From positions 36,128 through 100,127 of the forward strand of contig JAFDWQ010000003.1 in assembly GCA_018268395.1 (NCBI GenBank): DNA of 64,000 bases. The letters are read 5' to 3'. The notes beneath the pieces are model-generated. The model was given only the letters and a program-made list of their open reading frames with translations. It made no database searches and was not told the origin of the DNA. A program made the translations under genes and the position numbers. Of the stretch, positions 38,278 through 41,687 are shown one piece after another; position 1 is the stretch's first letter; each line of letters begins with the position of its first letter. This DNA comes from Armatimonadota bacterium (GTDB lineage: Bacteria > Armatimonadota > Fimbriimonadia > Fimbriimonadales > Fimbriimonadaceae).

Positions 38278-39519
38278 CTACTTTCGGAGGAAGACGTAAA
38301 CGAACCCGTGGTAGTCCACGGGAGGCTGGTACTTCTGGTCGTTGCCGAAGACTTCGATGAGGGCGTTGTTGGTCGGTTCGAACTGCGGGTCTTCGGACAG
38401 GATCGCTGCCGACCTTTCTGCGAGTTGCGACTCCTGGTCTGCGGTCAAGGTCTGGCCCTCTCGAAGTCCGAGGTCTTTCAGCGCCCGTGACTTGGCCTTT
38501 GACTGCAGCCCGTCAAGGATCTTCGAGAGCCGGGCGATTTCGGCCGTGAACTTCTGATGCTCGGCCGCTTCGGCCTCAGTCAACTTCGGGGGAGTGCCCC
38601 TCAGCATCGTAAAGTCGCCGACGACGAGGTCGGACTTCCCGTCGCCGTTCCAGTCTCCGACGAACGGTTTAGGCCTCATGGAAGGTCGTTTGCCTGCCGT
38701 CGCATCGAAGATGTCGAGCCGCTTTTGATCGTCTTCGACGCCTGGGGGAACGATGGGAGGCACGATAGCCCGGCCTTTTTCGAACGTCGGGACCGTGCCT
38801 TTGACGCCCTTATAGAACGTGACCGAACCGTCTTCCGAACCCAGAAGGAGGTCCGCGGTCTTATCCCCGTCCCAGTCCGCGACGGCAGGGCCTCCGTCCG
38901 GTGCCACGATTTCGCTGCCTGCCGCCGTCAGTTTGACGGGGGTCCCCAAGGCGAGCGCTCCCTTGTTCGGCGCGTAGTAGACGGCCCCCCCGAGCGAACC
39001 GAGAAAGAGGTCGGGACGCTTGTCCGAGTTCCAATCGAAGAGGGACACGGCGATCGCGCTGTCCGGGGCCAGCGGCTTTCCGTCCGGGCCAGACATCGTG
39101 ACGCCGAGGTCGAACGTTCCGTCGTTCCGGCCGCGGAAAACCGTGACAGGCCCGTCATAACCTCCGGACACCACGTCCGGCCGACCGTCTTGATCCAGGT
39201 CCGCGAACTGCGGGCCGAATCCGATGCATCACCCATAGGAGACAGCACCGGTCGTGCCGCCTGCTTGGAACCACTGCGGCTTTCCGAACACGGGGGCGGC
39301 CGCCGTCCCGGTGTTCCGGTAGACCTTGAGCTTGCCGCCTTCGAACTGGCCCACGAGGAGGTCCGGCTTCCCGTCGCGGTCAAGATCGGCCAAGCACGGT
39401 GCGGCGTGCCCGTGTTCGGTATCGATCGGAGTCCCGTCGGCCAGGACCCTGACCGGATCCGCGAGTCCGAACGACCGCCAGGGCGGCTCCGACAACGCCG
39501 CGGCCAGGAGCCAGATCAT
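38278..39519 (-). CDS. FG-GAP/VCBS propeller protein with in-frame UGA: candidate selenoprotein
   Basis: 413 codons if the UGA at 39231-39229 (codon 97) is read through. Codons 1-96 start with a short hydrophobic segment (MIWLLAAAL) and contain PCLADLDRDGKPDLLVGQFEGG. After the UGA the same frame continues without a break as CIGFGPQFADLDQDGRPDVVSGG, cut here to its core FADLDQDGRPDVV, through further FG-GAP repeats (VSLFDWNSDKRPDLFLG, AVADWDGDKTADLLLG, FVGDWNGDGKSDLVVG) to the end. No start codon with a plausible context exists after the UGA. A 7-bp hairpin with loop AGUUC begins 13 nt after the UGA and its loop starts 19 nt after it, matching bacterial SECIS rules. It is secreted or periplasmic. 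The alternatives are a pseudogene or a TGG-to-TGA sequencing error. Confidence 0.7.
39198..39231 (-). promoter_or_regulatory. UGA codon plus SECIS-like hairpin
   Basis: UGA occupies 39231-39229. GGCCCGC (39216-39210) pairs with GCGGACC (39204-39198) with one C-A mismatch. The loop is AGUUC (39209-39205) with G as its second base, 19 nt after the UGA. The published bacterial SECIS model asks for a loop 16-37 nt downstream with a G in its first two positions. Confidence 0.5.
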
Positions 39520-39525
39520 TCTTCC

Positions 39526-39531
39526 ATTGTA
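39526..39531 (-). promoter_or_regulatory. -10 element TACAAT of the FG-GAP gene, leaderless type
   Basis: TACAAT on the minus strand, 6 nt, then ATG 39519. A consensus-quality promoter at the first ORF argues that the gene is expressed rather than decayed. Confidence 0.6.
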
Positions 39532-41045: not shown

Positions 41046-41687
41046 ATGAAGTCCTGGCTTCCGGCGTTGCTCCTCTCCGTCGCACTGGCGGGGTGCAACG
41101 GCCCTACCGATCAGCCCACCGTCAAGGTCGACGGGTCCGGGTCGGGCAAGCAGGCGTCTCAAGGGCCGGTCGGCGACGGCTCTGACCAGACGCCCGCACC
41201 GGACGGCTCGACCGACCGGAAGGCGACAGGCGACGGAAAGACGCCGTCGACATCGTCAAACCCGCCACAGGACAAGGAACCGACGACTCCGGCCCCGTCG
41301 CAGGGCCAGGGCCCGACGCCGGCCCAACTCGAAAAGTCCTCCTTGGTCTCTTGGTCGAAGACCGTCGCCGAAGCGACGGCCGAAGCTCGAAAGGACGGCG
41401 GTTACGTGCTCCTTGTCTTCGAAGCCCCCTGGCATACGGGCTCGAAAATCATGAAGAAAGAGGTCTTTTCGGATGCCGAAACGGCCAAGTTGCTGCAAGG
41501 TGCCCACCCGGTCTCCCTGGACGTCGACGATCCGGCCACCAAGGAGCTGCAAAAGGAACACCTCGTAACGGCGATTCCGGTCATGTTCTTCGTAAAACCG
41601 GGTCAAAAGCCGTTCGGAATGATCGACGGCTATTACGATCTGACCCTGTTCAAGAAGCAACTTCGTAAGGTCCTCAAGGACAAGTAA
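41046..41687 (+). CDS. Lipoprotein with thioredoxin fold lacking the CXXC
   Basis: 213 residues. The lipobox is LAGC (Cys16). A long Pro/Gly/Ser/Asp-rich linker (about 17-98) leads to a thioredoxin_7-like domain: LVFEAPWHTGSKIMKKEVF, DVDDPATKELQKEHLVTAIPVMFFVKPG. The position of the WCxxCK active site reads WHTGSK, so both redox cysteines are replaced (His and Ser) while Trp, Lys and the cis-Pro (AIPVMF) are kept. It is probably a non-catalytic binding or chaperone-like lipoprotein in the periplasm. Confidence 0.8.
   Translation: MKSWLPALLLSVALAGCNGPTDQPTVKVDGSGSGKQASQGPVGDGSDQTPAPDGSTDRKATGDGKTPSTSSNPPQDKEPTTPAPSQGQGPTPAQLEKSSLVSWSKTVAEATAEARKDGGYVLLVFEAPWHTGSKIMKKEVFSDAETAKLLQGAHPVSLDVDDPATKELQKEHLVTAIPVMFFVKPGQKPFGMIDGYYDLTLFKKQLRKVLKDK

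Follow-up and report, generated by a model that had tools for sequence, protein, structure and literature searches.

The window, by which we mean the whole 64,000-nucleotide stretch of DNA analysed, carries on its minus strand a gene for an FG-GAP repeat protein whose reading frame contains a single internal UGA. The gene occupies positions 38278..39519, running from an ATG at 39519-39517 to a TAG at 38280-38278. An initial annotation of the sequence had described two minus-strand ORFs in one frame split by one UGA, and this description held: the two halves share a frame, and reading through the TGA at 39231-39229 yields a protein of 413 residues in which the UGA is codon 97 (39229..39231) and the adjoining codon 98 (39226..39228) specifies Cys. 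The joined protein matches FG-GAP_3 (PF13517; E 9.9e-27, 93.8 bits versus a Pfam gathering score of 26.9) and PF01839 (34.3 bits versus a gathering score of 22.1). The further statement that the sequence beyond the UGA has no usable start was too strong. A GTG-initiated ORF of 298 aa (39174-38278) is present downstream, and its start would fall inside blade 2 of the predicted propeller.

Six bases 5′ of the ATG lies the -10-like box TACAAT (39526..39531, minus strand), placed correctly by the initial annotation at 39531-39526 relative to the ATG at 39519. TANNAT occurs at exactly this distance from the start in 6 of 19 homologues from the window's phylum, namely the window gene and loci L018, L019, L022, L023 and L027. 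A rough scan of the window's 51 long ORFs picked up a similar box, at 4-9 bases, in just 1, and a strict promoter scan requiring a -35 box found no promoter for the FG-GAP gene. The fixed distance in six homologues suggests that these genes may be transcribed as leaderless mRNAs.

A lone in-frame stop in one gene could also arise from a sense codon misread in sequencing or from a nonsense mutation of recent origin. In 107 homologous genes from two phyla, the codon at this site is TGA in 98 and TGC or TGT in 9; nothing else occurs, including TAA and TAG, and the frames are intact on both sides of the TGA. Because TGA appears independently in about 100 genes, sequencing error is untenable, and we assign a negligible probability to an error or a pseudogene. 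Cys or UGA had been expected at codon 97 of aligned homologues, and those two are all that was seen, with Trp in none of the 107. An expected Sec-Cys pair was likewise confirmed, as 97 of the 98 TGA genes have Cys right after the UGA and 1 has Arg. The exception, a UGA-CGC (Sec-Arg) homologue at L156:574-618 (+), is the sole departure from a vicinal Sec-Cys pair. All 107 proteins have Sec or Cys in this column; Cys98 and Pro103 are each conserved at 99%, and the calcium-type Asp and Gly positions follow close behind.

Nearly all orthologues in 60 related genomes have exactly one TGA, in the same column and within the motif G*C[IV]. Of 291 genomes from the window's phylum that were searched with a profile, 18 contain the family, and it occurs in 74 of 392 genomes sampled from the phylum of a Planctomycetaceae record (G293), with the Sec form in 67 (about 17%). 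These genome samples are draws, so the prevalence figures are rough, and the names Planctomycetota and Verrucomicrobia are those of the central loci around which the samples were drawn. Two further TGA genes with a hairpin came from a third phylum, in the sample around the Verrucomicrobia record. A single-query scan of genome contigs returned only distant FG-GAP proteins, which led into the Planctomycetota and Verrucomicrobia samples; the matches listed from a plasmid collection included distant FG-GAP/VCBS proteins at 26-28% identity. Three genomes (G001, G034 and G155) each carry two divergent Sec paralogues, one of those in G155 without the helical insert described below.

The hairpin downstream of the UGA

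Bacterial SECIS elements lie immediately 3′ of the UGA, and their small apical loop contains a conserved G (PMC1088965). The SECIS-like hairpin of the window gene, GGCCCGC-AGUUC-GCGGACC (39198..39216, minus strand), follows the UGA after a 12-nt spacer and consists of two 7-nt arms (39216-39210 and 39204-39198) enclosing a 5-nt loop (39209-39205). Checked by hand against the bacterial SECIS rules, its position is as initially annotated: the loop AGUUC starts 19 nt after the UGA and its second base is G. The seven-pair stem that had been proposed stood only in part. Its third pair is C-A in the window gene (U-A in most homologues), and the conserved core comprises just the inner 4-5 pairs.

The folding energy of the hairpin is unremarkable (z -1.1), and an Rfam scan of the window gave zero matches; what establishes the structure is covariation. 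Pair 21-29 takes four forms across 90 distinct Sec sequences (A-U in 54, G-C in 28, G-U in 4 and C-G in 1) and is unpaired in 3, while two other stem pairs each show one compensatory change. The covariation score was reached by 0 of 500 shuffles, and slid controls scored lower. All four inner pairs are intact in 87 of the 90 Sec sequences versus 0 of 9 Cys sequences, and 89 of the 90 have G as the second base of the loop. In three related Sec genes (L177, L178 and L179), the covarying position of the stem carries a mismatched C-U (CCCC/GUGG).

When the residues encoded by the hairpin are masked, the resulting tree implies no fewer than 19 changes in the state of pair 21-29 and no fewer than 4 between Sec and Cys; an earlier tree of 21 genes had given 5 and 2, respectively. 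Several lineages have switched between Sec and Cys, and the hairpin is missing from the Cys forms. From the scattered occurrence of the Cys forms and their missing hairpin we infer, on a tree that is unrooted, that the direction was from Sec to Cys. These changes amount to a natural experiment on why Sec is required.

Selenocysteine machinery and decoding of the UGA

The source genome (3.72 Mb, 99.8% complete) encodes a tRNA-Sec with anticodon UCA, together with SelB (342.6 bits), SelA (428.8 bits) and SelD (345.9 bits), so that all four of the genes whose presence the initial annotation had proposed to check (selA, selB, selC and selD) were found. The SelD gene (L074, G000:C1:391620-392528) likewise contains an in-frame TGA, within CAGUASKLG, and a hairpin follows this UGA. 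From its sequence, SelD is likely a selenoprotein in its own right, and at least one other gene of the genome therefore also appears to use UGA for Sec.

Over the two phyla, SelB was detected in 76 of 83 genomes with the Sec form versus 2 of 9 with the Cys form only. In the window's phylum it accompanies the Sec form in 16 of 16 genomes, versus 139 of 291 genomes overall (p 4.5e-6); of the two Cys-only genomes there, one has SelB and the other, 68% complete, does not. In the Planctomycetota sample, SelB accompanies the Sec form in 60 of 67 genomes; it is also present in 1 of the 7 genomes with the Cys form only and in 174 of the 318 remaining genomes. The seven Sec-form genomes of this sample in which SelB was not detected are perhaps incomplete assemblies. 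SelB is present in 139 of 291 and 235 of 392 genomes of the two sets, many of them without the FG-GAP family; because SelB is common where the family is often absent, other selenoproteins must occur in these genomes.

Could UGA be read here outside the Sec system, through reassignment to tryptophan, a Cys-inserting suppressor or simple readthrough? Since the site holds Cys wherever it lacks UGA, a suppressor tRNA that inserts Cys would also yield a normal protein. TGA, however, also serves as an ordinary stop: it is the commonest terminator of the window's long ORFs (23 of 51), and several of the homologues themselves end at TGA. In addition, only the UGA forms retain the hairpin and its covariation, the UGA form goes with SelB, tRNA-Sec(UCA) is present, and no homologue has Trp. 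UGA-to-Trp reassignment and general suppression were ruled out on the strength of the homologues, the pairing with Cys and the use of TGA as a normal stop, and we regard decoding outside the Sec system as highly improbable.

Taken together, the sequence comparisons indicate that the window gene almost certainly encodes a selenoprotein. At UGA codon 97, SelB would deliver tRNA-Sec(UCA) and selenocysteine would be inserted; we propose that SelB binds the hairpin starting 12 nt past the UGA. This step is suggested by conservation, covariation and the gene set.

The propeller scaffold and its possible chemistry

An AlphaFold2 model of the protein, with Cys substituted for Sec, has a mean pLDDT of 90. 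Its best structural alignments are with the five-bladed propellers of GH43 and GH62 (Z ~19), which we take as likeness of fold only; the product is predicted to be a five-bladed FG-GAP beta-propeller of the calcium type. In the secondary structure of the model, Sec97 and Cys98 lie in a loop that precedes the inner strand (residues 104-106) of blade 2. A helical insert within blade 5 (residues 315-397; 38329..38577, minus strand), delineated from the model and the alignment, is missing in short subfamilies. Inspected by eye, many N-termini of the family are hydrophobic and signal-peptide-like, and a few are lipoprotein-like. Sequence and model together make a selenoprotein family built on a propeller scaffold very probable, and export of that scaffold probable. 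His38, Asp208, Arg282 and Lys284 were considered as a fixed active site and rejected, being held in 17 close relatives and not across the 107 proteins; since candidate partner residues vary across the wider family, no catalytic network is established.

The best functional lead comes from fusions, which are few. A C-terminal DsbD_N domain is present in five homologues, recognized in four by Pfam (PF11412) and in the fifth by similarity. In one of these five, a single ORF with two in-frame TGAs (L184:1181-3367 (-), G490:C7), the Sec-containing propeller is followed by DsbD_N and a PrxQ-type peroxiredoxin. The second TGA stands at the peroxidatic position of the PrxQ-type part (FYPKASTPG*T) and is followed by the hairpin GGGGUUC-CGUGAUC-GAACCCC; the UGA in the propeller part has a hairpin after it as well. 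These domain combinations suggest thiol or peroxide redox work outside the cytoplasm. Gene neighbourhoods, compared by similarity, revealed no conserved operon among 18; a 500-residue gene, likely proS, is convergent in the window and in a few close relatives. Elsewhere in the window, a lipoprotein-like ORF (41046-41687, plus strand) has a thioredoxin-like stretch that reads APWHTGSK at the expected CxxC place.

On this basis we propose that Sec97-Cys98, in the loop leading into the inner strand of blade 2, is a reactive pair, and that its vicinal selenenylsulfide would perform redox chemistry outside the cytoplasm, most likely peroxide reduction or exchange with thiol/disulfide partners. Our confidence that the protein is a thiol or peroxide redox enzyme is evenly balanced, and two other roles for the pair have to be weighed.

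Vicinal thiols or selenols act as ligands for soft metals, and the Sec-Cys pair might accordingly bind a metal, a metalloid or a selenium species with no redox turnover. Several inventoried selenoproteins with adjacent C and U have been linked to mercury or metals (PMC13188914), which lends this reading some weight. Against it, the DsbD_N and PrxQ fusions favour redox partners, and no metal-resistance genes were seen among the neighbours, which were compared only by similarity. We consider metal or selenium binding possible and rather unlikely.

Alternatively, the pair could be a non-catalytic bridge, structural or redox-sensing, in an adhesin or a sugar-binding propeller. The solved sequence relatives of the protein include lectins and integrins, its fold matches five-bladed glycosidases, and the propeller of methanol dehydrogenase provides a precedent in that it contains a vicinal disulfide. 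The cost of Sec would nevertheless be odd for a purely structural bond, and the Sec state is found in more than 90% of the genes. A bridge of this kind seems to us unlikely, somewhat more so than metal binding.

Relation to known selenoproteins and propellers

A 2026 inventory lists 119 prokaryotic selenoprotein families and subfamilies, none of them based on FG-GAP or VCBS repeats or on a propeller; according to the same review, the majority of characterised selenoproteins are thioredoxin-like in fold (PMC13188914). When the window protein and seven homologues were searched against NCBIfam release 20, no selenoprotein model matched, apart from generic models for PrxQ that hit the fused domain in the L184 protein. 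In full-text searches of a literature set with few subscription papers and no database annotation, no title or abstract described an FG-GAP, VCBS or Planctomycetes selenoprotein of this kind. Candidate selenoproteins of the Porphyra planctomycetes are tabulated elsewhere (PMC4807772). As far as tested, the protein class is new among selenoproteins and the decoding mechanism is ordinary. With middling confidence we go further and propose that this is the first known family with selenocysteine in a beta-propeller and a new class of extracytoplasmic selenoenzyme with a vicinal Sec-Cys pair, its Sec form present in about 17% of the Planctomycetota sample, patchy in at least two other phyla, and coupled in some lineages to DsbD-type and peroxiredoxin modules.

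FG-GAP propellers are usually regarded as scaffolds for adhesion or sugar binding. About 100 Sec genes were recovered from a limited sample, and the family is missing from the 2026 inventory; a pipeline that treats UGA as a stop will annotate each gene of this kind as a pair of truncated FG-GAP proteins. An FG-GAP selenoprotein also helps explain why SelB is so frequent in the Planctomycetota sample and in the window's phylum.

In its decoding, the window family resembles other bacterial selenoproteins, with which it shares an in-frame UGA, a downstream hairpin with a loop G, the SelA/SelB/SelD/tRNA-Sec set and homologues with Cys in the same column; it differs in being an FG-GAP propeller, which no inventoried family is (PMC13188914). 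With FG-GAP/VCBS repeat proteins (PF13517, PF01839) it has in common the DxDxDG repeat signature, the propeller fold and probable export, whereas the internal UGA, the invariant Sec/Cys-Cys pair and the helical insert in the last blade set it apart. Toward the DsbD N-terminal domain and PrxQ/Bcp peroxiredoxins, which are fused to homologues in five genes and one gene, respectively, the relation is one of partners and not of membership, as the window protein has neither domain. Thioredoxin reductase ends in a Gly-Cys-Sec-Gly motif whose adjacent Sec and Cys can form a selenenylsulfide. The window protein likewise has adjacent Sec and Cys capable of such a bond, but the two proteins are unrelated, and in the window protein the pair is reversed (Sec-Cys), internal and carried on a propeller.
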